Below, one piece after another: positions 20,292-44,010 of a DNA stretch of 44,394 bases; the stretch's first letter is position 1; each line of letters opens with the position of its first letter. A model generated the notes under the pieces. The model had not been told where the DNA came from, ran no database searches, and saw only the letters and a program-made list of their open reading frames with translations. The position numbers were made by a program, and so were the translations under genes. This DNA comes from SAR92 bacterium BACL16 MAG-120619-bin48 (GTDB lineage: Bacteria; Pseudomonadota; Gammaproteobacteria; Pseudomonadales; Porticoccaceae), in NCBI GenBank assembly GCA_001438605.1, contig LIDE01000030.1:1-44394 (forward strand). Reading direction: 5' to 3'.

Positions 20292-21335
20292 CTAGTCCAA
20301 CTGAGCAGTAGCACCATGTCTTACACTGCCGGCAAAAAGACGTTTCTCAGCAGGCAATTCAGGCTGTTCAATACGCTCCAAAAGCATCTCGACCGCAGCC
20401 TCCACCATTCGCTCTAGAGGTTGCAGGACCGTTGTTAAATCGTAGTTGAGCCAAGCAGCAGCATCGACGCCATCAAAGCCAACGACAGATATATCCTTAG
20501 GTATATTGGCCTTGTATTCAATGCGCAGTGTATCCAGACAACCAATGGCCATAATGTCATTGGTACAAACAAAGGCATCTGGATTGTGCATTGCCGAGTT
20601 CATCACTTCTCGCGTTAAGCTGCAGGCGCGTTGATAACTATAATCACCTTCCACCTCGACAATATCAACCGCCAAACCTTTAAGTTGCGCCACTGCACCC
20701 TGAGTTCTTGCTGTGCTTACTGGAGAATCCACTGGCCCGCTCATTACTACAAATGACTTGCGACCGCTGTTTAGCAGACCTTCAACTAACGAGCGCTCGC
20801 CCTCATAATGATCACAGCAAACAGACGATACCGTACTTTGAGGGTAGAGACGATTATAGAAAACTAAGGGAATGCCACGGTCTTCACAAGCACTTATCTG
20901 GACCTCAGTGAATTGAGCCGCGGCAATAATTCCATCAACTTGATATTGCCAGACCTTCTCTAAAACCTTGTCAACATCGCTCTCTTTATCAAGAGTAAAT
21001 AAGAGTATATGAATATCTTTTTCAGCAAATTTACGATTTAACTGAGAAAGAACTTGCGGGTAATTAAGATTGGTTAGCTCGGTAATGAGTACACCGACAA
21101 TGTTTGATCGGCCAGAAATTAATCCACGGGCAATGGCATTTGGCTGATAGCCTAAGGATTTGGCAGCACCGTCAACTTTCGCGCGCGTTTTGGCTGAGAC
21201 ACTGGCCCCTGCCTTAAAACAGCGTGACACTGCTGATTGAGAGACTCCAGCGACGCGAGCAACGTCATACGAGGTAGCTCGCTTACCTTCAAGGTTAATA
21301 GTTGTTGACTTAACGTCTCGCGTTTTATTTTTCAT
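20292..21335 (-). CDS. LacI-family transcriptional repressor
   Basis: 347 residues. The DNA-binding head is near the N-terminus (ATSYDVARVAGVSQSAVSRC, hinge region YQPNAIARGLISGRS). A periplasmic-binding-protein-like sensor domain follows (NIVGVLITELTNLNYPQVL, VFYNRLYP, VCTNDIMAIGCLD, ISVVGFDGVD). The ATG at 21335 is preferred over a TTG at 21368 because the perfect TATAAT of its promoter lies at 21368-21373, so the TTG would be upstream of the transcript start. It is divergent from the SnoaL-like operon. Centred CG palindromes with TTCGAA, as LacI proteins usually bind, lie in its own promoter and before most units of the locus. It is very probably the local regulator, responding to a pathway intermediate. 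Confidence 0.92.
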   Translation of the reverse strand: MKNKTRDVKSTTINLEGKRATSYDVARVAGVSQSAVSRCFKAGASVSAKTRAKVDGAAKSLGYQPNAIARGLISGRSNIVGVLITELTNLNYPQVLSQLNRKFAEKDIHILLFTLDKESDVDKVLEKVWQYQVDGIIAAAQFTEVQISACEDRGIPLVFYNRLYPQSTVSSVCCDHYEGERSLVEGLLNSGRKSFVVMSGPVDSPVSTARTQGAVAQLKGLAVDIVEVEGDYSYQRACSLTREVMNSAMHNPDAFVCTNDIMAIGCLDTLRIEYKANIPKDISVVGFDGVDAAAWLNYDLTTVLQPLERMVEAAVEMLLERIEQPELPAEKRLFAGSVRHGATAQLD

Positions 21336-21367
21336 ACCTCTAACTGGAAAGCTCCTATAGGCACTCA

Positions 21368-21401
21368 ATTATAAGTTAACGTGCAATGCATTCGAAAATC
21401 T
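21368..21401 (-). promoter_or_regulatory. lacI promoter with operator O1
   Basis: On the minus strand a perfect TATAAT lies at 21368-21373. The operator GCATTCGAAAAT, within 21386-21401, covers the -35 position. Binding there would give autorepression. The remaining divergent gap (about 21400-21620) shows no further motif that I can support. Confidence 0.6.
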
Positions 21402-21620
21402 CGCAGCATACTAACACAGCCCCAACATTTTTGGTGGTGAGCAAGGTATCCACTCAAGCTGTTTAGTAGCTGTCTTTAAACCAACTTAGGCCACACTACA
21501 CTGTCCGTTACTCGCAGTATGTTATCGCTTCTTAGTAAGGCCCAACAACGCCCTTTAAGATCATCGGCAAAACACATCGCTTCTTGCCAGGCGATAAACA
21601 AGTATTATCTTGTAAAAAGT

Positions 21621-21650
21621 TTGACTTTAATTTTGCATTCGAAGTACATT
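21621..21650 (+). promoter_or_regulatory. Promoter/operator O2 of the SnoaL-like operon
   Basis: TTGACT (21621-21626) and TACATT (21645-21650) are 18 bases apart. The operator GCATTCGAAGTACA (21635-21648) lies between and into the -10, so bound repressor would block RNA polymerase. Operator and flank (ACTTTAATTT before it) are almost identical to O3 on the other strand. Confidence 0.65.
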
Positions 21651-21689: not shown

Positions 21690-22697
21690 ATGAAGAATGC
21701 CGCGCCAAGTAACAACAGTATTATTACTAGTCTATTTGAATCACTGCAAGACCCTGAAAGAGCGCAGACTTTACTCTCTCAGCAGGTTGGAGAGCACTTC
21801 GCCTGGCATGGACCCAAGCCGTTTAAACCCTGTTTCAGTTCGAATGAATGGTGCTCGACGTTTTGGCTACCCTTTATTGATGCGTTTTTGGGGTTATCCC
21901 GAGAAACTCACATGCTGTTTGGCGGAATAAGCGAGGGCAAGGCTGACAAAAGTCCCGATGGGCAATCGTGGGTAGGCGCAACTGGCTATTATCATGGCGT
22001 TTTCTCAAAATCCTGGCTTGGGTTTGAACCGACTCATCAAGTGATCAAGCTAAGATGGGGTGAATTTTTCCGCATGGAAGAGGGAAAAATTATCGAGATG
22101 TATACTCTTTTCGACATCATTGACTTCCTCCAGCAAATCAATAAAAACCCCCTACCCCCCAGCCATGGCGTAGATTTTGTGTATCCTAGCCCGGCGGGCA
22201 TCAACGGAGTTCTACTCGATGCGAGCGATCCGGCTAAAACAGCAGAGTCAATGAGACTGATACGTGCATTTCTATTTGAGGGGCTCAATAATTTTGACAA
22301 AGAAGATCTCACCAGCATGGGTGTAGCTGACTTTTTCCATGATAATGTTAACTGGTACGGCCCTGGCGGAATAGGCGCATGCCTCAGTCTTAGAGAGTTT
22401 CAAGACTACCACCAGCAGCATTGGCTAACAGCATTCCCAGATCGCAAAGTGCAGGACCTAGATAGTTTATTTGCCGAGGGTGATTTTGTCGGATCTTCAG
22501 GCTGGGCTGGCGTTACCTCACAGCATACAGGACAGTACCTTAGTGCTGAGGCTACAGGTAACAGGATCAACTTCAATGGAATGGATTTTTGGCTTCGACG
22601 CGGTGACAAGTTTGTCGAAAACTGGGTCTTTGTTGACATGATTGATCTCTTCGATCAATTTGGTATTGATTTACTGCAACAGGCAAGAGAGCTTTAG
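21690..22697 (+). CDS. Tandem SnoaL/NTF2-like protein 1
   Basis: 335 residues made of two predicted cone-shaped NTF2-like domains (about 10-165 and 185-335). The second carries NWYGPGGIGACLSLREFQ, the HQQHWLTAFPDRK block, and FNGMDFWLRRGDKFVENW, which recur in its three closest neighbours. The first has HFAWHGPKPF and GYYHGVFSKSWLGFEPT. The fold includes polyketide cyclases, ester cyclases, dehydratases and a gamma-formaldehyde lyase of lignin catabolism (family knowledge). No signal peptide, so cytoplasmic. It is first in a three-gene operon (gap of five bases to the next) behind operator O2. The exact reaction is unknown. Confidence 0.8.
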   Translation: MKNAAPSNNSIITSLFESLQDPERAQTLLSQQVGEHFAWHGPKPFKPCFSSNEWCSTFWLPFIDAFLGLSRETHMLFGGISEGKADKSPDGQSWVGATGYYHGVFSKSWLGFEPTHQVIKLRWGEFFRMEEGKIIEMYTLFDIIDFLQQINKNPLPPSHGVDFVYPSPAGINGVLLDASDPAKTAESMRLIRAFLFEGLNNFDKEDLTSMGVADFFHDNVNWYGPGGIGACLSLREFQDYHQQHWLTAFPDRKVQDLDSLFAEGDFVGSSGWAGVTSQHTGQYLSAEATGNRINFNGMDFWLRRGDKFVENWVFVDMIDLFDQFGIDLLQQAREL

Positions 22698-22702
22698 ACG
22701 CT

Positions 22703-23707
22703 ATGACCGATCATTCCTCCAATAAGCAGCTTATTCTCGATTACTTTGATGCGATAGAAAAATCTACTACGGAAGATATTTCCTATACGATCGATCAATT
22801 TATTGCTGACGATTACCACTGGTATGGGGTATACCCATTTGAGGAGCAAGAGAATGCCCAGGGTGTGGCTAAGGCCTTCTGGATACCCTTTCTTAGTGCC
22901 TGGTCGCCAGTCCGGCGCCGCCAGGACGTATTCATGGGCGGCACTAGCGAGATCGATGGCACCCAGTGGGTGACCAGTATGGGTCACTTCCAGGGTCTTT
23001 TTGACAATGATTGGCTGGGCATTCCAGCTACTGGCAAGCTGGCCTATTTACGGTATGCGGAATTTCACAATATAAAAGACGGCAAGATCGTTCGCAGTAG
23101 TTTTTTTTGTGACATTATTGGCGTCATGCACCAAGCCGGTATTGACCCGTTGCCTATGCAAACCGGCGCCTCTGTCATTGTTCCCGGGCCTAAAACCCAT
23201 GACGGTATTCAGATTGCCAACCAACCCGAAAGTGAATCTCAAAAAACCATGGCGGTGCTCAACCAAATGATAGCTGATCTAGATGAGCTAAATCATTCAG
23301 GTGAAGGTCGCTATCCTCCTGAAATATTGGAGCGATCATGGCACTCTGATATGAGTTGGTATGGGCCTGCCGGTATTGGATCGACCTATACTATTCGTCG
23401 TTATCAGGAACAGCATTCCTACCCGTTTAGAGAAGGCCTAAAAGACAAAGTGTATAACGGTCATATTTGTCGCTATGCTGATGGCGACTACGCCTGCTTT
23501 TTTGGCTGGCCTAATTTGACCCATACGCCAACCGGTGGGTTTCTGGGTCTCCCGGGAAATGACTGCCGAGTCGATATGCGCGTCGTCGATGTTTACCGGC
23601 GCGATGGTGACAAACTCGCCGAGAACTGGGTCATTATTGATTTGCCCTGGTGGCTAAAGCAGCAAGGGGTAGATATTCTTGAGCGCTGTAAAAATATAAC
23701 CTCTTAA
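22703..23707 (+). CDS. Tandem SnoaL/NTF2-like protein 2
   Basis: 334 residues, again two NTF2-like domains, clearly a paralogue of the preceding gene. Matching blocks are DDYHWYGVYPF, MGHFQGLFDNDWLGIPATG, SWYGPAGIGSTYTIRRYQ, GWPNLTHTPTGGFLGLPG and YRRDGDKLAENWVIIDLP. The loop residues around the WYGPxGIG motif are kept, but the second half of the C-terminal domain differs, which suggests divided roles (for example a hetero-oligomer or consecutive steps). It begins five bases after the stop of protein 1, so the two are probably made in equal amounts. The function is unknown beyond the fold. Confidence 0.8.
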   Translation: MTDHSSNKQLILDYFDAIEKSTTEDISYTIDQFIADDYHWYGVYPFEEQENAQGVAKAFWIPFLSAWSPVRRRQDVFMGGTSEIDGTQWVTSMGHFQGLFDNDWLGIPATGKLAYLRYAEFHNIKDGKIVRSSFFCDIIGVMHQAGIDPLPMQTGASVIVPGPKTHDGIQIANQPESESQKTMAVLNQMIADLDELNHSGEGRYPPEILERSWHSDMSWYGPAGIGSTYTIRRYQEQHSYPFREGLKDKVYNGHICRYADGDYACFFGWPNLTHTPTGGFLGLPGNDCRVDMRVVDVYRRDGDKLAENWVIIDLPWWLKQQGVDILERCKNITS

Positions 23708-23731
23708 ACGCTGACTGCGAAGACTTTGGCT

Positions 23732-24271
23732 ATGAGTATGAAAAGATCAAGACCCTCACAGGCTACGCTAACGGCCAACAATGACCTAAGTAAAACTGCC
23801 GAAACTCTGGCAGTCGTTGATGCCATGGTGGACGGTCTTAATGATCATGATATTGACACCATGGATAGATTTTTTAGTAAATCGTTTCGCTGGATAGGAA
23901 ATGCTGGCTGCGGTTATAAAGTTGGTCTAAATGAATTTCAAGAAAATTGGCAGCGCCCATTTCAAGACGCTTTTTCCGATAAGGTCTGTGTCGACGAAGC
24001 AAGAGTAACCGAGGGTGAATGGTGCTCTGCTTTTGGTCGCCAAGAGGCGGTGCATTCTGGTGACTTTATGGGCATCCCGGCAACTCACAAAAAAATTGAA
24101 ATTCGCTATATGGATTTTTGGAAAGTGGTTGATGGAAAAATTGTTGATAACTGGGTTATGGTTGATTTTCCATCGATATTACAGCAACTTGGAGTTGACC
24201 CATTCGGCGGCTATGGGTGGGAAAAGATGGATTCTCAAAGAGCTCCTATTCAAAATGGCGAAGAGTCCTAA
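23732..24271 (+). CDS. Single-domain SnoaL-like protein 3
   Basis: 179 residues (start at ATG 23732; a TTG at 23726 and an ATG at 23738 are also possible). One NTF2-like domain matching the C-terminal domains of proteins 1 and 2: FRWIGNAGCGYKVGLNEFQ, RPFQDAFSDKVC, HSGDFMGIPATHKKIEIRY and KIVDNWVMVDFPSILQQLGVDP. The usual WYGPxGIG reads WIGNAGCG here, so the pocket entrance differs. It is last in the O2 operon, 24 bases after protein 2, and converges on the minus-strand paralogue at 24326. It probably acts as a dimer, as family members usually do. Confidence 0.78.
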   Translation: MSMKRSRPSQATLTANNDLSKTAETLAVVDAMVDGLNDHDIDTMDRFFSKSFRWIGNAGCGYKVGLNEFQENWQRPFQDAFSDKVCVDEARVTEGEWCSAFGRQEAVHSGDFMGIPATHKKIEIRYMDFWKVVDGKIVDNWVMVDFPSILQQLGVDPFGGYGWEKMDSQRAPIQNGEES

Positions 24272-24325: not shown

Positions 24326-24856
24326 CTAGGGAAGTCTTTTTGCTTTATTAAATTCTCGCATTCGCCCCAACACATCTATACCCAGTTGGTTATACACATC
24401 TAACAGGTCAATCAAAACCCAATTTTCTCGAATTAACCCTTTTTCACAGCGCCAAAAATCAAGACTGCGCATAGTAATTTTTTGGCCCGCTGGCGCAATA
24501 CCCAACCAGCCATCGCCACTGATAGTCATGCGCATACCAGGCCATGCAGTAAATTCGACATAGTCACCATCAGAGAACATATTCGATGTCTCAGGTATGC
24601 CACCACGATCAGGGAGAGCGTTTAGAAAAGGAATTTGGTGCCAGTTATGAACACCTGAGAGGCCTCTGCCAGTGCCGATTCCAGAGGGCCCATACCAATT
24701 ACACCTATGATGCCAATAATTGTCCAGAGCCATTGCATCCACGCCACCGTTGGAGAAGTTCAGTAGACCAGCGCACATATCATTAACCGTTGATTCTACA
24801 AATGTTGCCATCGAAACGGCTAAACCTAGACTGTTACGTTTTGTTATATTTATCAT
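24326..24856 (-). CDS. Single-domain SnoaL-like protein 4, opposite strand
   Basis: 176 residues from ATG 24856, which has AGGAG eight bases upstream; longer in-frame starts lack this. One NTF2-like domain with NWYGPSGIGTGRGLSGVH, QIPFLNALPDRGG, FTAWPGMRMTISGDGWLGIAP and SLDFWRCEKGLIRENWVLIDLLDVYNQ (longer blocks cut here). It resembles the second domain of protein 1 more than protein 3. It is transcribed alone from operator O3. The promoter region is near-identical to that of the forward operon, as if a domain plus its control region had been copied and inverted. Role unknown. Confidence 0.78.
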   Translation of the reverse strand: MINITKRNSLGLAVSMATFVESTVNDMCAGLLNFSNGGVDAMALDNYWHHRCNWYGPSGIGTGRGLSGVHNWHQIPFLNALPDRGGIPETSNMFSDGDYVEFTAWPGMRMTISGDGWLGIAPAGQKITMRSLDFWRCEKGLIRENWVLIDLLDVYNQLGIDVLGRMREFNKAKRLP

Positions 24857-24967
24857 GTTGATTTCTCCTAATGTGCATAAAAACTCAGAAATTAAGCCCA
24901 GCGGCAAGTCATCCCTTTTGTTTTTATTGTAGTAATTAACAGGAATAATCACCTAAATGAATCCCAT

Positions 24968-24990
24968 TTGTACTTCGAATGCAAATTAAA
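24968..24990 (-). promoter_or_regulatory. Operator/promoter O3 of the minus-strand SnoaL-like gene
   Basis: On the minus strand GCATTCGAAGTACA (24968-24981) follows ACTTTAATTT. TTAACT and TACAAA flank it 17 bases apart. The element lies about 110 bases before the ATG at 24856. It may also act on the divergent hydrolase gene at 25156. A further hairpin GCCGTA-TAGT-TACGGC lies at 25066-25081 in the same gap. Confidence 0.6.
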
Positions 24991-25155: not shown

Positions 25156-26052
25156 ATGTTCATGGCGATTATGAAAGCCTTTGCAGTCTATTTTATATTT
25201 ATTAGTGTTTCGCACTTCGGTAATACAGTCGAAGCGGAGGAAACTAATACACGGCCACTTGAAATCGAAGCTCGCTTCATCTCTATGGAAAGGAATCGTC
25301 TGGCGAGCCCCTTAAAAGGTCTCTCGGCCCAAGTGGGGAAATTCAGTGTAGATGGGTTAATTCAATATGCCCTCTTGCTGCAACCCGAAAATGGAATGCC
25401 AGAATCCGGCTGGCCAGTGATAATTTTTAATCATGGATTTCATCCTGAGCCGTCTATGAGTGGTCGGCGCACCATAGACGGCATAAGTGACCGCCCGGGT
25501 GACTATTATCGCCAGATACCTCAGATACTTGCGCGCCAAGGGTTTTTAATCGTTGCGCCAGATTATCGGGGCCACAATGATTCCATAGGCACTGAGTTCA
25601 CCCTGCAAGAAAACTCCTCTAACTGGTATGTCCGCGATGTACTGGGCATGCTAACTTCCCTTCAGGGTAATAGTCACGCCAATATGGAGCATTTATTTAT
25701 GCTCGGCCACTCCATGGGGGCAGAAGTAACACTCCTCGCTGCTGCTGCCCTTGGCGGCAGGTTGAAAGGGGCTAGTATTTGGTCTGCCCATGTCCCTGCA
25801 GTTAATGCCAGCCAATTAGAGCAGATCTATAGCCCCATAAATATTCATCACGCAAAGGATGACCCAACAACGGTCTTTGAGGGATCTGTGGCCATCGCCA
25901 GCCAACTTGATCAATTAGGTAACACCAGCAAACTGTATTCATACTTGAGCGCGAACCATCTCTTTACGGGCGACAATTTACAATTGGCAATTACCCGAGA
26001 TATCGAATTTTTCCGACATATTATGCTGACCCATGGGACGCGCCAAGAGTAG
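25156..26052 (+). CDS. Exported alpha/beta hydrolase (periplasmic esterase type)
   Basis: 298 residues. An N-terminal hydrophobic segment (MKAFAVYFIFISVSHFG then TVEAEE) looks like a signal peptide, so the enzyme is probably periplasmic. The hydrolase core shows PVIIFNHGF (oxyanion strand), VAPDYRGHNDSIG, LFMLGHSMGAEVTLLAAAA with the nucleophile serine, IHHAKDDPTT for the acid and SANHLFTG for the histidine. It resembles dienelactone-hydrolase/prolyl-oligopeptidase-like esterases. It stands between two operator-controlled units, divergent from SnoaL-like gene 4. A role in taking off an ester group before import is plausible but not shown. Confidence 0.82.
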   Translation: MFMAIMKAFAVYFIFISVSHFGNTVEAEETNTRPLEIEARFISMERNRLASPLKGLSAQVGKFSVDGLIQYALLLQPENGMPESGWPVIIFNHGFHPEPSMSGRRTIDGISDRPGDYYRQIPQILARQGFLIVAPDYRGHNDSIGTEFTLQENSSNWYVRDVLGMLTSLQGNSHANMEHLFMLGHSMGAEVTLLAAAALGGRLKGASIWSAHVPAVNASQLEQIYSPINIHHAKDDPTTVFEGSVAIASQLDQLGNTSKLYSYLSANHLFTGDNLQLAITRDIEFFRHIMLTHGTRQE

Positions 26053-26208: not shown

Positions 26209-26238
26209 TTGATTTTGCATTCGCAGTACATTACTATC
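26209..26238 (+). promoter_or_regulatory. Promoter/operator O4 of the bicupin operon
   Basis: TTGATT (26209-26214) and TACTAT (26233-26238) are 18 bases apart. Between them lies GCATTCGCAGTACA (26217-26230), the only operator copy with C instead of A in the TTCGAA core. It probably drives the long operon from 26277 to at least 31366. Confidence 0.55.
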
Positions 26239-26276
26239 GTGCCTCACTCATTTCAACTTACTGTTTGAATACACTT

Positions 26277-27305
26277 ATGACCCCAATCTCTAATGTAGGC
26301 AGCCTCAAATCTTTTATTTTACGTCGCAGCGAGATCGTGCCTTGTAAGACCGCGTTCATCGATGCTCGAACGCCAGGAAGCGACCAGAAAGAAAATTATT
26401 GCCTCATTGGTGCAGGCGTAGCGGAAAACACAGAGCAAGTAGTGCACATAAGTACTCCACATGGCTTTGATGTCGGCGCAGCGCGTCAGCCAAAAGGCTG
26501 CAAAAACTCTCATCATAGTCACGATACAGAGGAGGTATTTATCGTTCATCAGGGGCAGTGGAAGTTTACCTGGGGCGAAGATGGTAGCGATGGTGAGACT
26601 GTACTATGCAGTGGTGATACAATCTCTATACCTACTCAAATGTTTCGAGGCTTTGAAAATGTGGGTGACGATAATGGGTTCCTGCTCAGTGTTTTAGGTC
26701 ATCTTCCAGACGGCACCCCAGGTAGGGTCACCTGGGCGCCATATGTTTTCGAAGAGGCAAAACAGTATGGGTTAGTGTTACTGCAGGATGGGCGTCTTAT
26801 CGATACGCATGCAGGCCAGCGTATTCCAGATGACCAACCGTTATATAGTCCTATCTCTGGTGAAGAACTAGAGGCTTTCAGAACATTAACACTGGAAGAT
26901 ATGACTAAGAATGTCTGTCGCAATGCTGAGCTTGTAACTCAGAATACTGGTGGCCTTAGCGATGGCCATGGCGCACAAGAATTTTCTGTTATTGGCGGCC
27001 AAACTGACTCTGAGCGCATGCCTGCAGGCAAGATTAGTCGGCCTCACAACTTTCAACTGCGACGATTGATGCTTGATCCCGGTGCGTCAATCGCTAAGCA
27101 CAAGCGGCAGGAGCCCGAAGTTATATTTGTTCATCAAGGTAGCATTATGGTCGCCACGCACAAAGGCACCTTTACCCTCGGTACTGGTGATCTATTTACC
27201 TGCCCCGTTGGGCTACCTCGATCCTTTACTAATGAAGGCAGTGAAACTGCCGACATAATAGTAGTACGAGGCGGGGACTGCCCCAGTGCCGCAATCTTTA
27301 TCTGA
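26277..27305 (+). CDS. Bicupin protein, possible dioxygenase or isomerase
   Basis: 342 residues (ATG 26277; a TTG at 26265 is possible) with two cupin domains. Domain 1 (about 55-150) has HHSHDTEEVFIVHQG, giving the HxH and Glu of cupin motif 1, then GDTISIPTQMFRGFEN, where motif 2 has Arg in place of the usual His. Domain 2 (about 255-340) has KHKRQEPEVIFVHQG and GDLFTCPVGLPRSFTN, again Arg for His and lacking the full HxH. Domain 1 could still bind a metal through three ligands. Bicupins include ring-cleaving dioxygenases, but this one matches none that I can name. It is first gene of the O4 operon, 37 bases before a SnoaL-like gene. Confidence 0.75.
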   Translation: MTPISNVGSLKSFILRRSEIVPCKTAFIDARTPGSDQKENYCLIGAGVAENTEQVVHISTPHGFDVGAARQPKGCKNSHHSHDTEEVFIVHQGQWKFTWGEDGSDGETVLCSGDTISIPTQMFRGFENVGDDNGFLLSVLGHLPDGTPGRVTWAPYVFEEAKQYGLVLLQDGRLIDTHAGQRIPDDQPLYSPISGEELEAFRTLTLEDMTKNVCRNAELVTQNTGGLSDGHGAQEFSVIGGQTDSERMPAGKISRPHNFQLRRLMLDPGASIAKHKRQEPEVIFVHQGSIMVATHKGTFTLGTGDLFTCPVGLPRSFTNEGSETADIIVVRGGDCPSAAIFI

Positions 27306-27342
27306 AAACGCGGTTTAGCGTTGGCAATAATTTTAGAGATTA

Positions 27343-35514: not shown

Positions 35515-37794
35515 ATGCAATTTTCTAGAAGGAAATTTCTCGAACTTATAGCCGCCACTGGCGCGGCTTCTGCTGCTAGCAGTGTCGTCAGTGCTAAATC
35601 TGGATCGCATGAGCAACCCAATTTAGCTGAAGGGCGGCAAAAAGGATTTACCGATAAAGGCTGGACTCCAAGAACAAAGATTCGCCAGCCTAATATTCTG
35701 ATTGCCGTTTTAGACGATGTCGGTTTCGCCGATTTAAGCTGTTTCGGCTCCGAGTATGTCATGCCATTTACCGAATCCATGGCAGAAAACGGCACCAGAT
35801 TCAACAACTTCCACGTCACAGCGGTTTGCGCACCCACAAGAGCCTGTCTATTTACCGGTCGAAATGCTCATTCTGTCGGCGTTGGCAATATTGCTGAGTG
35901 GGCTCAAAAAGGCCAGCCAGGCTACAACGGCTGGATCCGCCAAGATGCGGCAACTATGGCGGAAATATTATCTCAGCAGGGCTACTACACTAGCGCCTGC
36001 GGAAAATGGCATATGACGCCGCTAGAAGACCAAAACGGTACTGGCCCTTTTGAGCACTGGCCAACAGGCCGGGGATTTGACCATTGGTATGGCTTTCACG
36101 GGTCTGCGGTAGACCACTGGCATCCAGAGTTGTTTGAGAATGTATCCCCTAGCTATCCCGACAAGCAGACAGATAAAGTCTATCATCTTAGTGTCGATCT
36201 AGCCGACAAGTCTATTAGCTATATCCAAAATCATCTAGCTGCAGACCCTGAAAAACCTTTCTTTCACTATATTGGTTTTGGCGCCTGCCATTTCCCACTG
36301 CATGTGCCTGCGGAAGATATTCAGCGGCAAAAAGGTAAATTTGATCAGGGCTATGATATTGCCAGGACAAAACGCTTTGCGAGGCAAAAAATACTCGGCA
36401 TTGTCCCGAAGCAGGCGAGCCTTCCTGAGGATAATGGAAACCACATCAAATGGAATGATCTCAGTGCTGATGAACGGCGTTATGCAGCACGAACACAGGA
36501 AGTCTATGCGGCATTTATCGAACACACTGACCTACAGATGCAGCGAATTATTCAGGTTCTCAAAGATGAGGGCGTGTATGACGACACGATTATTATATTC
36601 ACCTCTGACAACGGGGCTACAGCCAGTGCTGGACGCAATGGAATGCATGACGTTAGACGCGTCAGCTACCTTGGAGAACCCTGGGCAGAGAGACTGGCAA
36701 ATATTGATTTGCTTGGCGGTGAGCTGTCCCAGCCAGCCAATGTAGGAGGCTGGGCACAGGCCAGCAATACCCCCTTAAAATGGTACAAGAGTGATACCTA
36801 TGAAGGAGGCATCAGATCGCCGCTTTTAGTCACCTGGCCAAACGGCAATTTGCCTGAGGGACAGATTAATTCTCAGTATCACCATGCGATTGACCTATTA
36901 CCCACTTTACTTAACATGGCCAATCTGGAGATGCCCTCTTCACACAAAGGCTATAGCTCTCTGGAGCTGCAGGGAACAAGTTTTGCCTATACCTTCGACA
37001 ACCCGAATGCGGCCACTCGAAAAGGTCCCCAATACTACGAAACTTTGGGTGACAGGGCGATGTGGAAAGATGGCTGGAAGGCCGTTACCCGGCACGTCAA
37101 AGGCGAGGATTTCAAGGACGATGTATGGGAACTTTACAATACCGCAGAAGACTATTCGGAGATCACCAATCTCGCCGAAGCTGAACCTGAGCGCCTTAGG
37201 GACCTAATTGCACTCTGGTATAAAGATGCCGAGCGTTATGACGTTTTACCCTTAGAAGACGATACGCTAAAGCTCTATAAAGCGTCTGTGCCACAGCCTC
37301 GTTCAACCCATGTCTTTTACCCCGGCATGACGCGGCTCGATCGGCTGAGCGCTCCTGATATCTACAATTATAACTCTCTCATCACCGTCGAAATGGCAGT
37401 ACAGACTCGAGATGTCAATGGAGTGATTCTTGCTTCAGGGGATAGCAGCAGTGGTTATGAGATGTTTGTACAAAAGGGTTATCTACACATCGTGTATGTC
37501 TACACCAGAGACACTGTTTACAGTTTCAAATCTAGCCGAAAGATACCCCTAGGCGAACACAGACTAACGGTCGAGATTAATAAAACCGGCACTGATTCCG
37601 CGGTTGCCAAAGTGGCTCTAGGCAGCCAGAGATTAGGCGTGATGGTGCTACCCAAACTCTGGCCAATCTATACACCAAACTCTGGGATTCGCTGCGGTGA
37701 AAACCGCCATGCGCCAATCAGTCGTGTCTATAGGTCACCGTTTGTATTCAATCAAACGTTAAAGCGTGTCACTGTGGACATCCAGATTAGCTAA
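35515..37794 (+). CDS. Tat-exported type I sulfatase
   Basis: 759 residues. The twin-arginine signal SRRKFLELIAATGAASAAS lies at residues 4-22. The sulfatase core starts with LIAVLDDVGFADLSCFG (two metal-binding Asp at 67-68). CAPTRACLFTGR at 105-116 is the formylglycine motif, whose Cys105 must be oxidised by a maturase not present here. GYYTSACGKWHMTP, TSDNGATASAGR and WYKSDTYEGGIRSPLL follow in family order. About 200 residues at the C-terminus form an extra beta-rich domain. The motif set matches the arylsulfatase-like S1_4-type branch. The ribosome site AGGAG is eight bases before ATG. It removes a sulfate ester in the periplasm and defines the locus as acting on a sulfated compound. Confidence 0.92.
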   Translation: MQFSRRKFLELIAATGAASAASSVVSAKSGSHEQPNLAEGRQKGFTDKGWTPRTKIRQPNILIAVLDDVGFADLSCFGSEYVMPFTESMAENGTRFNNFHVTAVCAPTRACLFTGRNAHSVGVGNIAEWAQKGQPGYNGWIRQDAATMAEILSQQGYYTSACGKWHMTPLEDQNGTGPFEHWPTGRGFDHWYGFHGSAVDHWHPELFENVSPSYPDKQTDKVYHLSVDLADKSISYIQNHLAADPEKPFFHYIGFGACHFPLHVPAEDIQRQKGKFDQGYDIARTKRFARQKILGIVPKQASLPEDNGNHIKWNDLSADERRYAARTQEVYAAFIEHTDLQMQRIIQVLKDEGVYDDTIIIFTSDNGATASAGRNGMHDVRRVSYLGEPWAERLANIDLLGGELSQPANVGGWAQASNTPLKWYKSDTYEGGIRSPLLVTWPNGNLPEGQINSQYHHAIDLLPTLLNMANLEMPSSHKGYSSLELQGTSFAYTFDNPNAATRKGPQYYETLGDRAMWKDGWKAVTRHVKGEDFKDDVWELYNTAEDYSEITNLAEAEPERLRDLIALWYKDAERYDVLPLEDDTLKLYKASVPQPRSTHVFYPGMTRLDRLSAPDIYNYNSLITVEMAVQTRDVNGVILASGDSSSGYEMFVQKGYLHIVYVYTRDTVYSFKSSRKIPLGEHRLTVEINKTGTDSAVAKVALGSQRLGVMVLPKLWPIYTPNSGIRCGENRHAPISRVYRSPFVFNQTLKRVTVDIQIS

Positions 37795-37858
37795 GTAGGT
37801 CCTGCCTTTATACTGATTCTTAATTGAAGGCATATATGTTGTGAATCAACCCACTGTT

Positions 37859-37886
37859 GCCCTATTGAATTCAATTTCAATAGGGC
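37859..37886. repeat. Perfect 11-bp inverted repeat between sulfatase and amidohydrolase genes
   Basis: GCCCTATTGAA (37859-37869) and TTCAATAGGGC (37876-37886) pair exactly around TTCAAT. No T-run follows, so it is not a standard terminator. It could be an operator or an RNA hairpin that stabilises the sulfatase message. Confidence 0.6.
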
Positions 37887-37924
37887 ATGAAAGTTCGACG
37901 AATCCTGTTACTTAAGAGATAAAT

Positions 37925-38818
37925 ATGAATAGCCATCCGTTTCGCTTTATCGATGCGCACCATCACCTATGGGATTTGGAAGCCTGCGACTATCCTTGGT
38001 TAATGGCTAAAGGGGAGCAACGATTTTTTGGAGACCCTAGCCCCATCCAAAAGAACTACCTCGTTAGTGATTTTCTCAATGAGTCTACCCAATACTGTCC
38101 TGAGAAGTCGGTACATATCCAAGTGGGTACAAGTAAGCATGATAGTCTTAAAGAAACACAATGGCTTCAACAGCAAAGCCCAGTTCCCAACGCCATTGTT
38201 GCCTTTTGCGATTTAAGTGCTGAAAACTATCAGCAGCAAATCGACGCTCAAAAAGCCTATTCAAAAGTAAAGGGTGTTCGTCAAATTATCGGGCGCCACG
38301 CCAATGAAGACAGTAAATATGGTAGCCATACATTACTCGTAAACGCTAATTGGCGTAAGGCCATGGTCTATCTTACGGAGCAAGGCTTAAGTTTTGATTT
38401 ACAAATGATCCCGCCACAAATCGATGCGGTATATAAAGCATTACAAACCATACCCAATGTAAAAATTGCCCTATGCCACGGCGGGTCGCCCTGGGACCAA
38501 TCCTCATCAGGGCTGGATAGTTGGCAAGCTGGTTTAAAGAAGTTATCCACGCTACCAAATGTTTGTTGCAAAGTTTCTGGGTTAGGTATGTTCAATAACC
38601 ATTGGCGTGACCAGGATTTAGCATCACTGATTGAACGTATCATCGATACGTTTGGCCCCGAAAAAACTATGTTCGGCTCTAACTTTCCTGTCGACAAACT
38701 TTATCGTAGCTACGATAACTACTGGGATTGTTATCGGTCGGCTGTTAAACAGTATTCTTGTTTAGAGCAGCATCAAATGTTTTATCAAACCGCTAGCAAC
38801 TTTTACCAAATGGACTAA
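37925..38818 (+). CDS. Amidohydrolase-family lactonase (PF04909-like)
   Basis: 297 residues, TIM-barrel metal hydrolase. FRFIDAHHHLWDLEACDYPWL is the N-terminal metal motif (HxHxW; longer block cut here). HIQVGTSKHDSLKETQWL, KGVRQIIGRHANED, LSFDLQMIPPQIDAV, IALCHGGSPWD with the metal His and MFGSNFPVDKLY with the catalytic Asp follow in order. The nearest named functions are L-fuconolactone/sugar lactone hydrolases and 2-pyrone-4,6-dicarboxylate hydrolase LigI; the sequence does not decide. It lies 130 bases after the sulfatase gene on the same strand. In this context it probably opens a lactone formed by the dehydrogenases. Confidence 0.88.
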   Translation: MNSHPFRFIDAHHHLWDLEACDYPWLMAKGEQRFFGDPSPIQKNYLVSDFLNESTQYCPEKSVHIQVGTSKHDSLKETQWLQQQSPVPNAIVAFCDLSAENYQQQIDAQKAYSKVKGVRQIIGRHANEDSKYGSHTLLVNANWRKAMVYLTEQGLSFDLQMIPPQIDAVYKALQTIPNVKIALCHGGSPWDQSSSGLDSWQAGLKKLSTLPNVCCKVSGLGMFNNHWRDQDLASLIERIIDTFGPEKTMFGSNFPVDKLYRSYDNYWDCYRSAVKQYSCLEQHQMFYQTASNFYQMD

Positions 38819-39276: not shown

Positions 39277-41142
39277 TCAAAGCGCTAGATCGTCACCCAA
39301 TGCTTCGACCAAAGGCTGTAGATGTTGCTCATATTTTTTCCAAGCTTGCACTGATGACTTATAGATAGGCTTGCGTACCTGGCTTGCACTGGGGGTTCTT
39401 ACCAAGCGCTTGGTTGAATAAAACTCTAGCATTTCAGGCTCAAGGTCCAAATCCAGAAATTCTACTAAGCGCACACATTGTTGCTGAATGTTGGATACCG
39501 TGTCTTCGTAGCGAACATCCAATATTCGCTGTGGATACATTTCCTTCCATTGATCCATCAAGCCTTTGTAGAGCCTGTAATGGTCTCCCAATGATTTCAA
39601 ATCATGGGCATAGTCTTGATCGTCAGCAAAGGCCAACTTGAAAATAGAGAAGCAATTATCCATAGGGTTTCTGGAGCAATGAATAAATTTTGCACTAGGA
39701 AAGACTTCAGCGAGTAAACCCAAGTATTGAAAATTCATGGGTGTTTTATCGATGAGTACTGGGATATCCCAATGGCTTTGGGAAATTTTTCCCAAGAAGT
39801 TTGCGCGTAATAAATTGATATCCTCTTGGGACAACCCTGAAAGACCCTGAGGATAATGCTTTCCTGTCAGCTCCTTTACTTGAACCGCCATCTCATCAGC
39901 ATAGCCAACCTCGCCTAAACTGCTTACCTTAGTATTGCTTGCCAGAATCTGGTCCGTCAGTGAGGTTCCGGAGCGTTGCATTCCTACGATAAACACTAGC
40001 TGACGAGTATCTTCTGCAGGGGACCCAGTGAACCTTCCGATCAAGGCTTTGCTATAAGCAATGGATGAATCCCGATAGCCTGTTCTTTTATTTAAGTCAT
40101 ATGGGTGGCGCTCAGCTTTACTCTGATTAGCGATCAGCCAAGCAGCAAAGGCTTTGTCAGTTTGACCTTGCTGGTCGTAGGCTACGCCCAATCCAAAATG
40201 TACATTAGACTTATCTCTAGAAGAGAGATCGGTGACTTTTTGAAGGCGCTCCATGGCCAAGATCTCTTCTTCGATCATTATTCTGCCCTTAATCTGAGAC
40301 AGATGATAGAGCGGTGAAACTGCATCAGGCGCCAACTCTATGGACTTTTTGAAGCAATCAGCGGCTGCTACTATATCGCCTACCTGTTCTTTTAATATAC
40401 CCAACGCTGCATGGGCTTTGGCATGTCGCGGCTCCAGCTCAATTAGCCGGTTTAAGACCTCAAGTGATGAGTCGACATCCTCAGATTCTCGGTACACGGT
40501 GGCCAACCCAAGCATCGATTCATAGAGTGTTGGGCACAACTCAAGGGATTTTTTGTAAGCACTAATAGCCAGGTCATATTTAAACGTTTTTCGATATACT
40601 TCGCCCATTTGGTTGTGTGCCTCGGCGAGGGAGGAATCAATCTGCAAGGCTCGGCTCACCGCCTGAAAAGCGCGCTCAAACTCACCGAGCTCCACCAGTG
40701 CCTGAGACAGGTTGGTCCAGCATTCAGGATAGTTACCATCAGCTTTAAGGGTGCTTTCATAGACTTGAACCGCTTCTGACGCCCTGCCACTCTCTCTGAG
40801 TATATTTCCCAAGCTAATAAAAATTGTCCGGGTTTTACCGCCTATTTCGATAGATTTTCTAAAGCAACTCTCGGCTAACTTGAGGTTACCCATGTGCTGA
40901 TAAGCTAGACCTAGATTGCCTTGGGCCTGTGCATCAGCGGGATTGATTTTCAGTGCCTGTGTGATCAGCTTTACGGCTTCTTCATGGCGCCCCGTGTTAA
41001 CACAGATCATACCGAGTAAATTCAGTCCGTGAATATTGCTGCTATCGCCCAATATTACTCGGCGAAAGTTCTTCTCAGCAGCGTCCAAATTGCCTTGTTG
41101 GTAGTACTCGAGCCCGGCTTTAAGTAAATCAGTTATTGTCAT
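39277..41142 (-). CDS. TPR-repeat sulfotransferase
   Basis: 621 residues from ATG 41142; a GTG at 41184 falls inside a terminator hairpin, so I reject it. Residues about 1-300 form eight or so tetratricopeptide repeats (GLEYYQQGNLDAAEKNFRR, LGLAYQHMGNLKLAESCFRK, ALGILKEQVGDIVAAADCF). About 375-600 is a PAPS sulfotransferase: QLVFIVGMQRSGTSLTDQIL (5'-phosphosulfate loop), IPVLIDKTPMNFQYLG, and FIHCSRNPMDNCFSIF (3'-phosphate loop). Such proteins are common beside TonB receptors in marine proteobacteria, with unknown targets (general knowledge). No signal peptide. It lies directly downstream of the receptor gene, after a terminator. It could sulfate a carbohydrate, lipid or protein. Confidence 0.88.
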   Translation of the reverse strand: MTITDLLKAGLEYYQQGNLDAAEKNFRRVILGDSSNIHGLNLLGMICVNTGRHEEAVKLITQALKINPADAQAQGNLGLAYQHMGNLKLAESCFRKSIEIGGKTRTIFISLGNILRESGRASEAVQVYESTLKADGNYPECWTNLSQALVELGEFERAFQAVSRALQIDSSLAEAHNQMGEVYRKTFKYDLAISAYKKSLELCPTLYESMLGLATVYRESEDVDSSLEVLNRLIELEPRHAKAHAALGILKEQVGDIVAAADCFKKSIELAPDAVSPLYHLSQIKGRIMIEEEILAMERLQKVTDLSSRDKSNVHFGLGVAYDQQGQTDKAFAAWLIANQSKAERHPYDLNKRTGYRDSSIAYSKALIGRFTGSPAEDTRQLVFIVGMQRSGTSLTDQILASNTKVSSLGEVGYADEMAVQVKELTGKHYPQGLSGLSQEDINLLRANFLGKISQSHWDIPVLIDKTPMNFQYLGLLAEVFPSAKFIHCSRNPMDNCFSIFKLAFADDQDYAHDLKSLGDHYRLYKGLMDQWKEMYPQRILDVRYEDTVSNIQQQCVRLVEFLDLDLEPEMLEFYSTKRLVRTPSASQVRKPIYKSSVQAWKKYEQHLQPLVEALGDDLAL

Positions 41143-41169
41143 ATGGACGTATTCAGTCTGTTGTAAATG

Positions 41170-41198
41170 TACAAAGCCCCGCACTTAAGTGCGAGGCT
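41170..41198 (-). terminator. Terminator between TonB receptor and TPR-sulfotransferase genes
   Basis: On the minus strand AGCC-T-CGCAC, a TTAA loop and GTGCG-G-GGCT form a nine-pair stem with one mismatch, followed by TTTGTACATTT. It contains the 14-bp palindrome CGCACTTAAGTGCG. It probably limits, but may not fully stop, read-through. Confidence 0.65.
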
Positions 41199-41243
41199 CT
41201 AGTATACAGGCCATCCATGGCCCCTGTGACTGTAATGGCTAAG

Positions 41244-43655
41244 TTAGAATTTATAACCAGCTCTTACGCCCCAAATACGCTGACGGCCATAGTCAGCCAT
41301 AATGCGGCCACCACTAAACGCGTTCTGATTAACCTTATAGACCTCATCTGTCGCGTTGTTGACGAAGGCTTTAATTTCTAAGCCCTCTGTAGGCGTTATC
41401 CAAGTAACTCGCAGATCAAGAGTGGTATAACCAGATTGATTAGCAAAACCATACTCATGATTCATAGTTTTAAAGTCAGACTGTCGATACACAGTGGCGC
41501 CCGGGATGAGAGTACCATTACCACCTAAATCGATCCGATAGGAAGCATCCAGGTTAATAATATTACTTGGCGAGAAAGAAGCCTTTTCACCACTAATATC
41601 GTACGTTGGGGTCGAGGTTACTTCATCATTATCAGATCTGAGCCATGCACCTCTGTGACCGTTTGGACGGTAGGGGTAGTAACCACCCGCGGCACTGGTC
41701 GCATCCGTGACAAATCGGCCTTCGGTAAATACCGACTCGGTTACCTGGAATTCATCCAACACTGTGTTGTCAAATATAATGCCTGCTATGATATTTAGCT
41801 CTTCTACTGGCTGCCACAATAACTCCACCTCAAGTCCTTTAGATGTAAGGCCACCACCAGTCTCTTGGCTTGAGCAAATACTTGCGCCACAGGTTTCAAA
41901 AACCGTATACGACAGGTTAGTGTACTCACTGTGATACAGGGCTGCATTAAGCCTTACGGTGTTATCAGCCCATGAGGACTTTAAGCCCAGCTCAAATGCA
42001 TCGAGCTCATTTGGAGCGAGGATTTTGTCGCCACTTACCGTACTAGGGATGTAGCCGGTGGAGAAACTACCGTAAATGTTGATATCGTCGTTGTAAGCGT
42101 AGTTTAAGGCTAACTTGTAGTCAGTGTGGCCAATATCTAAACCTTCATCGCTGTCAGCCAGATCAGTGTAGTAGCTTGCATCCAGCACCAAGCCCCCGGA
42201 GTTGGTACTGTAGCCAGGACCCCAGACAGTTTCGTCACCGTAGCCGTTACTGGTGTAACTGAAAGATTTAGTCGAATCTTCCTGACGACGAAGACCCACA
42301 GAAGCGGTCAAGTCATCGGTAATGTCATACTCGGCATTGGCGTAGACCGCTGAAGACTTAGATCCATAACTATCCCAGGTTGTCCATGAAGGATACGAAA
42401 TAGTGCCATCATCTTGAGGATAGCCCCACACATATGCGCCGTTGTTATCATCCTCGTCCCATGAGTCGGACCAGTAGTAGCCAAGCGTCCAGCGAAATGC
42501 CTGATCCCCTTTCGACGACAGATACATATCAATCTGATCATTTGCCGTAAAGCCAACGTTGCCGTCTACTATGTTATTAGATCCACCATCGACATCCCAG
42601 AGACTTAAATTCTCAGTCTCACTGTGGCGTGCTTTAACACTGAGGTCTGCAAATTCTAGTTCCCAGTTGAACTCAAGGGTCAAGGATTCGGATTCAGACT
42701 GCCAAGTGTTTGCAAAGTTACCGGTTGTAGAAAAGTAGGCCGTCGGATCGGTTGCCGGGTTGTCGTTGTGATAAGTACGGCCACCGGTTTGAACATCGCC
42801 GTCGATAGGTGCCTTGCGAGGTACGATGTTGTCACTAAACCAACCACTTGATCGACCCGTGTCTGGATTGATGGGGAGACCCACATAATGGGAGCCAAAG
42901 TTGGCATTACCCATCGAGTCAGTTTCCCACTTGGAGTATTCGACGTTTATGTCCATGGCTTCAGTTGGAGCCCAAGACAATTGAGCTCGGATGTAGCTGT
43001 TGTCTTCATCGCGAAGACCACCCTCACTAAACTCCTTATTTTCAATCAGCGGATCGCGCTCCGTGTTACTACCGGTAATGCGAACGGCGAGGGTATCGCT
43101 GATCGGCATGTTGGCGAAACCTTCAACCTTCCGCGCACCGTAGTCACCCAACGTAATCGCCACGCCGTAATCTGTACCTTCGGTACTTGGCTTTTTAGAG
43201 ACAATGTTAACCAAGCCGCCGAGAGTATTTGCTCCATAGAGTGTGCCCTGCGGGCCGCGTAAGACTTCCGCGCGCTCAAGGTCAATCCAGCCAGCCCAAC
43301 TTGTGCCTCCGGCCAGGCCATTGGTGTATAGAGGAACAGCCTCACCATTCAAGCCTGCAACTCCACCGCCACGCATTTTAAAACTGGGAAAGGAGCCCTG
43401 CCACTGCACTTTTAAACCAGGTGCTAACTTGGGTAAATCGATGCTGGAATAAATACCCAGATCATTCAATATACCGCCATCGATCGCCGTGATTGCAATC
43501 GGAATCTCCTGAGCATTAACAGACTGCTTAGTCGCTGTGACTATCACTTCGTCCATCATTGAAGTCTGAGCCAGCGCTGATGAGGCGATACACGGCCCTA
43601 GCACCAATGTCGAAATAACGGAACTTAGTTTGGTTTTTCGGAAGTTACTTATCAT
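41244..43655 (-). CDS. TonB-dependent outer-membrane receptor
   Basis: 803 residues. A signal peptide (about 1-30, ending SSALAQ) precedes the TonB-box-like DEVIVTATKQSVNAQEIP. The plug domain (about 40-160) has LKVQWQGSFPSFKMRGGGV and RAEVLRGPQGTLYGANTLGG, the family hallmark. The rest is a 22-strand barrel ending in RQRIWGVRAGYKF, with the usual terminal Phe. The barrel resembles the large proteobacterial receptor group of the Fiu/VciA/carbohydrate-uptake kind, so the substrate could be an organic compound rather than a siderophore. It has two operators (43767-43783, 43854-43870) in its promoter region, so uptake is under the same repressor. GGGGAA is the ribosome site. Confidence 0.93.
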   Translation of the reverse strand: MISNFRKTKLSSVISTLVLGPCIASSALAQTSMMDEVIVTATKQSVNAQEIPIAITAIDGGILNDLGIYSSIDLPKLAPGLKVQWQGSFPSFKMRGGGVAGLNGEAVPLYTNGLAGGTSWAGWIDLERAEVLRGPQGTLYGANTLGGLVNIVSKKPSTEGTDYGVAITLGDYGARKVEGFANMPISDTLAVRITGSNTERDPLIENKEFSEGGLRDEDNSYIRAQLSWAPTEAMDINVEYSKWETDSMGNANFGSHYVGLPINPDTGRSSGWFSDNIVPRKAPIDGDVQTGGRTYHNDNPATDPTAYFSTTGNFANTWQSESESLTLEFNWELEFADLSVKARHSETENLSLWDVDGGSNNIVDGNVGFTANDQIDMYLSSKGDQAFRWTLGYYWSDSWDEDDNNGAYVWGYPQDDGTISYPSWTTWDSYGSKSSAVYANAEYDITDDLTASVGLRRQEDSTKSFSYTSNGYGDETVWGPGYSTNSGGLVLDASYYTDLADSDEGLDIGHTDYKLALNYAYNDDINIYGSFSTGYIPSTVSGDKILAPNELDAFELGLKSSWADNTVRLNAALYHSEYTNLSYTVFETCGASICSSQETGGGLTSKGLEVELLWQPVEELNIIAGIIFDNTVLDEFQVTESVFTEGRFVTDATSAAGGYYPYRPNGHRGAWLRSDNDEVTSTPTYDISGEKASFSPSNIINLDASYRIDLGGNGTLIPGATVYRQSDFKTMNHEYGFANQSGYTTLDLRVTWITPTEGLEIKAFVNNATDEVYKVNQNAFSGGRIMADYGRQRIWGVRAGYKF

Positions 43656-43766
43656 TTTAATTCCCCAAGGATTACTAACATACTGTGATTAAACTGTTGC
43701 TATATTAATCATCCACGAGCGACAGCGCTCTGGCATTATTGAAATTTGTCTTTATCTTAGAATATT

Positions 43767-43783
43767 TTGACTTCGAATGCTAA
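43767..43783 (-). promoter_or_regulatory. Operator O6 upstream of the TonB receptor
   Basis: On the minus strand the core GCATTCGAAGTCA lies between TTGATA and CAAAAT, 18 bases apart, the same arrangement as at O2. Its centre is 86 bases from that of O7. Confidence 0.6.
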
Positions 43784-43845
43784 TTATTATCAAAAATATC
43801 ACCGACCTTTAAATTTATAGTTATTTTTCAGAAAGATATAATTTA

Positions 43846-44010
43846 TCAAACATATACTTCGAATGCAAGTTTAGAGCAACTAAGCTCTAATCCATTTCCA
43901 CTGACGCCATTGATTCGGCGCTTAATTAAACAATAGTCGCCCTCTAAGGGCTCATCCAGATCTTGACGGACATCGCGGCGCAGTTTTAAGGTATATGTAG
44001 TTCCAATCAT
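43846..44010 (-). CDS. Doubtful small ORF beside the receptor promoter
   Basis: 54 residues from ATG 44010 (a TTG at 44049 would give 67). The sequence DEPLEGDYCLIKRRINGVSG is hydrophilic and not recognised. Its last codons coincide with operator O7 and with the upstream region of the receptor, which argues against a real gene. A GCGAGAGAA before the ATG is a weak ribosome site. It is kept only as a possibility, perhaps another decayed reading frame like the one at 44092-44271. Confidence 0.2.
   Translation of the reverse strand: MIGTTYTLKLRRDVRQDLDEPLEGDYCLIKRRINGVSGNGLELSCSKLAFEVYV
43854..43870 (-). promoter_or_regulatory. Operator O7 upstream of the TonB receptor
   Basis: On the minus strand the core GCATTCGAAGTATA lies between TTGCTC and TATATG, 17 bases apart. 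Two operators 86 bases apart (about eight helical turns) would allow a repressor tetramer to loop the DNA. Confidence 0.6.

Follow-up and report, generated by a model that had tools for sequence, protein, structure and literature searches.

Does one LacI-type regulator control a whole catabolic gene cluster in a marine SAR92 bacterium, and how would its operators be built? The locus lies on contig LIDE01000030.1 of SAR92 bacterium BACL16 MAG-120619-bin48 (contig C30 of a 2.53-Mb draft genome), which was analysed over its full 44,394 nucleotides and is called the window here. A preliminary description of this DNA had proposed that a lacI gene, through seven TTCGAA-type operators, controls uptake, sulfate removal and catabolism together. 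With a probability of about 0.85, we conclude that one LacI-type regulator controls a cluster of ~25 kb (18.7-43.7 kb) via predicted operators embedded in promoters. The regulon is strongly supported, because the motif follows lacI across genomes, precedes orthologous genes in eight families and stays at chance level elsewhere. One regulon over the cluster is retained from the earlier proposal, with sulfate removal reduced to a local addition.

The regulator gene itself is as follows.

20295..21335, minus strand: lacI-type regulator, 347 amino acids (aa), with the Pfam domains HTH PF00356 and Peripla_BP_3.

Its product belongs to the LacI family, as it scores 45.4 bits for the PF00356 helix-turn-helix (Pfam cut-off 27) and 76.6 bits for the effector domain Peripla_BP_3 (cut-off 26.5). 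Residues 20-320 align to CcpA, and the protein carries a QSAVSR helix (AVSR). Orthologues are found at 75-86% identity in six other genomes of the family and at 51-68% in ten genomes of other families; of five loci found in SAR92-clade and Porticoccaceae records, four have relatives at 85-86% and one has a 24% match. Among the 19 genes scanned between 18750 and 43655, LacI is the sole regulator recognised by Pfam.

All seven proposed cores (O1-O7) are present where the preliminary description placed them. We call sites that end in GTAYA or GTACG type A, those that end in GTC plus two bases type A', and the symmetric site O5 type B.

21388-21399, no strand assigned: O1, GCATTCGAAAAT, rejected as an operator.
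21633..21648 (core 21635-21648), plus strand: O2, putative type A operator TTGCATTCGAAGTACA, before the SnoaL-like gene Sno1.
24969..24984 (core 24969-24982), minus strand: O3, putative type A operator, before the SnoaL-like gene Sno4.
26215..26230 (core 26217-26230), plus strand: O4, putative type A operator TTGCATTCGCAGTACA, before the bicupin operon.
35384-35399 (centre 35391/35392), no strand assigned: O5, putative type B operator TTGACTTCGAAGTCAA, in the intergenic region of the hisD-like and sulfatase genes.
43767..43782 (core 43767-43780), minus strand: O6, putative operator TAGCATTCGAAGTCAA, before the TonB receptor, with TAAGAT 17 bp downstream of TAGCAT.
43853..43868 (core 43853-43866), minus strand: O7, putative operator TTGCATTCGAAGTATA, before the TonB receptor, with TAAATT 17 bp downstream of TTGCAT.

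Six of these, O2-O7, hold as candidates. O1 was dropped as not conserved, its four aligned copies reading GCGTTTAATAAT or GTATTTAATACC (three lacI/SnoaL regions of genus g14 were left unaligned), and it is also missing from the matrix hits above 5. The TTGCATTCGAAGTACA-type sites O2, O3, O4, O6 and O7 precede SnoaL, bicupin and TonB-receptor genes, and the positions of sites and gene starts bear out the claim that they share one orientation relative to the gene. Sites stand before all operon-like blocks from 21.7 to 43.7 kb except abhDLH, an alpha/beta hydrolase gene. The O3 locus has a history of its own: in the relatives H231 and G022, a TonB receptor stands between the abhDLH/Sno4 site and Sno4, and the site precedes that receptor. 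Compared with H231 (L066 13367-16851), the window is without this receptor and without the N-terminal half of Sno4, and O3 lies directly before the shortened Sno4 (together 24326-24982), which looks like a deletion that left the operator in place.

When 20 distinct exact sites (from 22, in the window and its relatives within the family) are aligned, they yield TTGCATTCGAAGTACA. Letters that the search pattern fixed cannot vary in this set, and positions outside the pattern are also conserved: the two leading T's (19/20 and 20/20), A8 (16/20), A12 (18/20) and C13 (17/20). A CG centre is present in 20/20 distinct type A and A' sites, a count that is partly circular as the pattern required CG; CG is also central in O5 and in the sites of family f15 described below. 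Palindromy depends on the type of site. Type B is perfect, even and at least 22 bp long, one f15 site is nearly so over 14-16 bp, and the arms of type A differ. The idea of simple CG-centred palindromes needs correcting, as most of the predicted operators are mixed and combine two different half-site words.

How specific is this motif to the cluster? TTCGAA alone was ruled out as the signal, its count being at chance level in the window (12 found, 13.4 expected), and the 14-mer with up to three mismatches is not clearly enriched there (7 found, 4.1 expected; 13 of 100 shuffles reach as many). The exact pattern GCATTCGNAGTNNA, which was derived from the window sites, is not common genome-wide: it occurs seven times in the 2.53-Mb genome, five of these within the 44-kb window, and the two outside matches lie inside open reading frames (ORFs) of 411 and 446 aa. 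With one mismatch allowed there are 30 genome matches versus 13 for the reversed control. As candidates for further regulon members in this genome, five of the 25 other matches (2 exact and 23 with one mismatch) were opened (L001, L002, L010, L012, L019) and rejected, since all five overlap ORFs of 196-543 aa. Because the pattern comes from the window, the independent test lies in relatives, where the motif holds.

Within the family, 112 genomes were compared, seven of which carry a lacI orthologue at 75-86% (own genome included). All seven contain exact GCATTCGVAGTAYA, with 19 matches that without exception lie on cluster contigs; among the 105 genomes that lack the orthologue, 4 contain it (5 matches), and the reversed control gives 4 matches across the 112. 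Two of the four carriers are contig-end fragments with related genes: the G018 contig is near-identical to the window cluster and ends within Sno1, short of the expected place of lacI, and in G014 the site faces a contig end at a distance of ~150 bp, the contig carrying homologues of the SnoaL and TonB-receptor genes. The G054 and G083 matches fall inside ORFs; within 1 kb of the G054 site there is a 34% match to SDR, a very common family, and otherwise no cluster homologue was seen. The 16-mer before Sno1 (O2) is identical in 8/8 lacI/SnoaL intergenic regions from seven genomes. One bin, G023, contains two different lacI-Sno1 contigs (L075, L038), by duplication or as a mixed bin.

The same association extends across the order, sampled with 390 genomes, of which 28 have any lacI match at 1e-50 and 12 a homologue of at least 51% identity. 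The exact motif is present in 11 of these 12 (30 matches) and in 13 of the other 378 (13 matches), with 22 matches for the reversed control in all 390; the motif rate in genomes without the homologue is chance level. In the twelfth genome, G186, the motif differs in its last base; it stands there before the bicupin gene and between lacI and the symporter gene. Of the 30 matches, 28 were inspected, and all 28 lie at or beside homologues of cluster genes. Among the 13 outsider matches, 10 overlap an ORF of more than 150 aa and none has a homologue of the window cluster within 500 bp.

The cluster with its motif thus occurs in eight families (f4, f10, f25, f41, f42, f47, f1 and f40), where the motif is conserved before orthologous genes. 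In the first six, hisD lies directly before lacI, followed by abh1 (an alpha/beta hydrolase gene), MetE-like or HpcH genes where the contig continues; in f40, hisD is apart from lacI. Homologues of the bicupin, SnoaL, symporter and TonB-receptor genes surround lacI in the clusters of other families, many with a site in front. The lacI-abh1-HpcH genes of the window have no site of their own, and in four genomes of f25, f41 and f47, where hisD and lacI form one unit, a site stands at the start of abh1. These type A sites lie within or at the start of the abh1 frame (L156, L157, L163 5686, L164 8968), inside the hisD-lacI-abh1 unit, as a possible roadblock operator or through a misplaced start. 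More distant homologues extend the comparison. The lacI homologues of family f15 (38-41%, QSAVSR helix, gene order hisD-lacI-abh1) are accompanied before hisD by GCATTCGAATGCA(A/C) in G331, a site made of two copies of the left half-site, and by GCATTCGGATGCAC in G312. These f15 sites tie the motif to the lacI lineage outside the original pattern. Type A-like sites were also seen near a 41% lacI homologue (G212; L114 3710) and near a second lacI, at 39%, beside the main one in G357 (L161 8272).

Geometry was compared in 61 distinct sites; one of 62 was removed as identical in context (G023a = H231), G018, which is near-identical to the window, was omitted, and type B and f15 sites were excluded. 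A cluster-gene start lies within 520 bp in the direction of the motif at 56 of the 61 sites, on the other side only at three and at neither for two. One wrong-side site faces an unassigned 437-aa ORF and the other two are covered by a TonB-receptor ORF called from its longest start; the two sites with no such start are G014, at its contig end, and G188, covered by a TonB-receptor ORF. Since 33 of the 56 oriented sites lie between divergent genes, orientation is informative mainly for the other 23.

The spacing to promoter-like hexamers separates the two classes. Of the 44 type A sites, 20 have a TTGACA-like hexamer (at least 5/6) upstream of TACA at a distance of 16-18 bp, where 1000 runs with shuffled flanks gave 1.1 on average and never more than 6; over spacings of 12 to 29 bp just one further such hexamer turns up, at 24. 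In those 20 sites TACANN can serve as a -10 box. At O2, for example, a possible -10 box TACATT (21645-21650) stands 18 bp from the candidate -35 box TTGACT (21621-21626). In 12 of the 17 type A' sites, TANNNT follows exactly 17 bp after TTGCAT (TAGCAT in O6), which can serve as a -35 box; shuffles give a mean of 0.45 and a maximum of 3, and every other spacing from 13 to 25 gives zero. Each geometry is rare in the opposite class (1/17 and 1/44). As the two classes were inspected before testing, p-values should not be taken at face value. The statement that most sites sit between -35 and -10 boxes was therefore close, with the amendment that one arm of the site is often itself a possible promoter hexamer. 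The orientation of the sites is best read as a consequence of the operator being written into the promoter. Sites, link to lacI, conservation, orientation and promoter-like spacing all emerge from this comparison of sequences.

O5 had been described as a core only. Between the hisD-like and sulfatase genes, it in fact forms the middle of a palindrome that is perfect over 44 bp (35370-35413), for which an arithmetic estimate gives roughly a 2.5-in-a-billion chance in random 44-kb sequence. On the plus strand, a proposed -35 box at 35384-35389 is paired with a proposed -10 box TAATAT at 35407-35412, and on the minus strand a proposed -35 box at 35394-35399 with TAATAT at 35371-35376. Both strands read TTGACT-17 bp-TAATAT, each end of the palindrome lies 1 bp beyond a proposed -10 box, and the whole reads as two promoters back to back. 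Part of one O5 arm, searched with up to three mismatches in the own genome, gave besides O5 only a weak three-mismatch match at O7 (control 1).

The core TTGACTTCGAAGTCAA is found in 6 of the 112 family genomes (G000, G017, G018, G023, G099, G111), all with the cluster or near-identical fragments (control 0); G022 and G108 have lacI and lack this core. The palindrome recurs before hisD orthologues in two genera. In H231 (compared at L174 and L177), a perfect 42-bp palindrome occupies the same place, with two differences per arm from the window, mirrored, and TAGTAT on both sides (by eye). Elsewhere the palindrome spans 38 bp in G099, 22 bp in G111 and at least 22 bp beside N's in G023, whose left arm reads N. 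G099 keeps a good -10 box (TAACAT) on the hisD side only (by eye), matching the lack of a close divergent gene there. At hisD of G022 there is instead a type A' site, with no long palindrome and no TANNNT at 17 bp. That a spacer position changed in mirror fashion suggests that either both arms are under selection or quasi-palindromes were corrected by template switching, which is a known source of mutations (PMC7202029). The contig end of G018 (L175) carries a perfect palindrome of 68 bp in the place of O5; as a possible fold-back of the assembly it was not counted for arm symmetry.

We propose that the LacI-family protein encoded at 20295-21335 acts as a local repressor of its own catabolic cluster. 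It would bind sites with a central CG in which two half-site words, GAATGCAA and GAAGTCAA/GAAGTACA, are arranged around TTCGAA, and these sites would interlock with sigma70-type promoters. In type A, the GTACA arm would carry the -10 box, with the -35 box 16-18 bp upstream; in type A', the TTGCAT arm would be the -35 box, with the -10 box after 17 bp. In type B (O5), both arms would be -35 boxes (TTGACT) of back-to-back promoters, and a single bound dimer would therefore shut off hisD and the sulfatase operon together. The E. coli bio operator region offers a parallel, having one palindromic operator over two divergent promoters, as proposed for O5; it differs in its repressor, of the BirA family, its imperfect palindrome and its face-to-face overlapping promoters. 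Bound repressor would exclude RNA polymerase, and an inducer, probably a sugar-like intermediate, would release it and turn on outer-membrane uptake, symport and catabolism. Binding by this LacI protein, repression, promoter activity and the inducer are what we infer here. At about even odds we place a more specific scheme, in which one repressor reads two half-site words, the operator is written into the promoter hexamers (GTACA arm as -10; TTGCAT or TTGACT arm as -35) and the promoter sets the polarity. Under this scheme the two mirrored halves between hisD and sulfatase turned into a bidirectional promoter-operator of perfect two-fold symmetry, and its arms change in step from species to species, possibly through template-switch correction.

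Several observations weigh against control of the cluster by this regulator through these sites. By far most of the reported LacI-family motifs are palindromes, and type A, with its asymmetry, is not. No convincing site was seen near lacI itself within the family, and G014 (a 74%-complete genome) has a site but no detected lacI. Across the family the type A' 15-mer shows no enrichment, being present in 2 of 112 genomes (control 4 matches), and one of its carriers, G087, has no cluster homologue in its 3-kb locus. Five of nine distant lacI homologues (35-41%, QSAVSR helix) have no similar site in 4-kb loci, mostly scanned on one strand. O5 scores 14.5 with the type A matrix, about equal to the best chance matches (14.3 and 13.2 in the two best of 20 simulated windows). 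Among the promoter geometries, 24 of the 44 type A sites have no -35 box (at least 5/6) at 16-18 bp, and TANNNT also peaks just after type A sites, at spacings of 11 (8/44), 14 (6) and 26 (5) from TTGCAT. These two results rule out a single promoter rule for all type A sites, and the type A -10 box may lie just after the site rather than within it. By eye, a TACTAT-like -10 box just after the site fits better at several bicupin and MetE sites, including O4, which is flanked by TTGATT (26209-26214) and TACTAT (26232-26237) with a 17-bp spacer. Nine of the 12 fitting type A' sites belong to hisD orthologues and so cannot count as independent cases; the remaining three stand before TonB-receptor or bicupin genes.

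Could the motif belong to another transcription factor, encoded elsewhere, with lacI a mere neighbour? The conserved sites are asymmetric and mostly locked in orientation, which is unusual for a symmetric LacI dimer, and the G014 site without a detected lacI points the same way. We nevertheless regard this as improbable, as the motif tracks this lacI over 112 and 390 genomes, the 19 scanned genes include no second Pfam-recognised regulator, CG-centred symmetric forms exist and orientation goes with promoter overlap. It is less probable still that the motif is a plain conserved promoter element (a core promoter or sigma-factor site) and no operator. The arms do coincide with -35 or -10 hexamers in mostly fixed orientation; yet the conserved core (CATTCGAAGT) has positions outside the hexamers, though most of these were required by the search pattern, genomes lacking the lacI show the motif at no more than chance level, and the arms are -35 at some genes and -10 at others.

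If the sites are operators of this LacI protein, the regulator might activate the cluster instead of repressing it, since LacI-family activators and dual regulators such as FruR/Cra exist (Ravcheev et al. 2014, PMC4052901). The overlap of the sites with proposed -35 and -10 boxes, where bound protein should exclude polymerase, makes activation unlikely. A perfect 44-bp inverted repeat such as O5 could fold strongly and might be an RNA hairpin, a terminator or a transposon remnant outside the regulon. This seems very unlikely: O5 lies upstream of two divergent genes and ends 1 bp outside the proposed -10 boxes, it holds the TTCGAAGT core and recurs before hisD orthologues, and the search of the own genome with part of one arm returned only O5 and the weak O7 match. 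Repression by the LacI protein through O2-O7 remains our preferred reading.

How does the predicted regulon compare with known systems? Of the 1303 LacI-family regulators treated by Ravcheev et al. 2014 (PMC4052901), 1251 are reported to have even palindromes and 1173 to have CG centres. As in their local regulons, the regulator here lies beside catabolic and transport genes, the centre is CG, several operons are covered and sites are mostly close upstream of start codons; sites stand before the regulator's neighbour genes and are conserved before orthologues. Type B fits their palindromes, whereas type A departs from them, most sites here being mixed, with two half-site words in mostly fixed orientation. 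The terms hisD, cupin and TonB were not found in the main text of that paper. The nearest precedent for type A is the scheme of Camas et al. 2010 (PMC2978694), in which one LacI-family regulator can accept two palindromes plus non-palindromic mixtures, and which accommodates type B, the f15 palindrome and the mixed type A. Their code concerns a TVSR set, whereas the protein here has AVSR (QSAVSR), and across families its mixed form is retained and tracks the promoter register. In the bidirectional promoters of E. coli described by Warman et al. 2026 (PMC12825309), a -10 element is shared and starts are commonly 18, 10 or 23 bp apart. O5 is similar in that one symmetric element would serve divergent transcription and two polymerases could not bind it at once. 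It differs in sharing no -10 element: two separate proposed -10 boxes, 30 bp apart, lie outside two back-to-back -35 boxes, with the operator in the middle. Among the entries listed from one open-licence library we recognised no published description of the cluster or its operator strings. Judged from sequence, the regulon is new, its regulator comes from a known family, and its operators follow an uncommon variant layout.

The genes of the cluster, apart from lacI, are arranged as follows.

18750..20276, minus strand: HpcH/HpaI aldolase and alpha/beta hydrolase (abh1), downstream of lacI.
21690..24271, plus strand: three SnoaL-like genes (Sno1-3), from ORFs and Pfam.
24326..24952, minus strand: SnoaL-like gene Sno4, 208 aa (Pfam), shorter than its relatives in H231 and others.
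25156..26052, plus strand: alpha/beta hydrolase abhDLH, divergent from O3, without a site of its own.
26265..33813, plus strand: bicupin, SnoaL, SSF symporter, MetE-like, abh483 and SDR genes, on one strand with gaps below 170 bp.
34043..35338, minus strand: hisD-like dehydrogenase, closest solved relative sulfopropanediol 3-dehydrogenase.
35515..38818, plus strand: sulfatase and lactonase-like amidohydrolase, from profile and structure matches.
39277..43655, minus strand: TonB-dependent receptor and TPR-sulfotransferase, from ORFs and Pfam.

Because they share a strand and are separated by such short gaps, the bicupin-to-SDR genes form a probable operon. The order lacI-abh1-HpcH is retained in several relatives. 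In many related clusters a TPR-sulfotransferase gene (about 22-45% identity; L071, L073, L158-L160, L162, L163, L172) adjoins the TonB receptor or diverges from it. A 1087-aa minus-strand ORF at 14563-17826 has no Pfam match at E 0.001.

The content of the cluster may hint at its substrate. The hisD-like protein scores 385 bits against sulfopropanediol 3-dehydrogenase (HpsN, 8v35) versus 277 against the best HisD (4g07), placing it nearer in sequence to HpsN than to histidinol dehydrogenase. The HpcH aldolase is related to keto-deoxy sugar acid aldolases, among others, and the closest solved structures of this aldolase and of the symporter point to sugar-like ligands. Sno1, one of five SnoaL-like proteins in the cluster, and the MetE-like protein have weak matches only, and the bicupin has none among solved structures. 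Our guess is a sugar-like substrate or a sulfonated polyol. Among the stretches read, G017 and G023 alone have a close sulfatase relative (75-92%) with the cluster; other matches are one of 26% downstream of the G099 cluster and one over 71 residues in G014.

For SAR92 and its order, the predicted regulon, found in eight families, would define the membership of a catabolic pathway that comprises an HpsN-like dehydrogenase, a bicupin, several SnoaL proteins, a lactonase-like amidohydrolase, an HpcH aldolase, a Na+ symporter and a TonB receptor. The repressor may serve as a handle for substrate discovery by ligand screening. A rule by which a half-site is also a promoter hexamer would explain how a symmetric repressor comes to have asymmetric sites of fixed orientation, and could be applied to other LacI regulons. 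The O5 palindrome, finally, would be a natural, minimal two-way switch.

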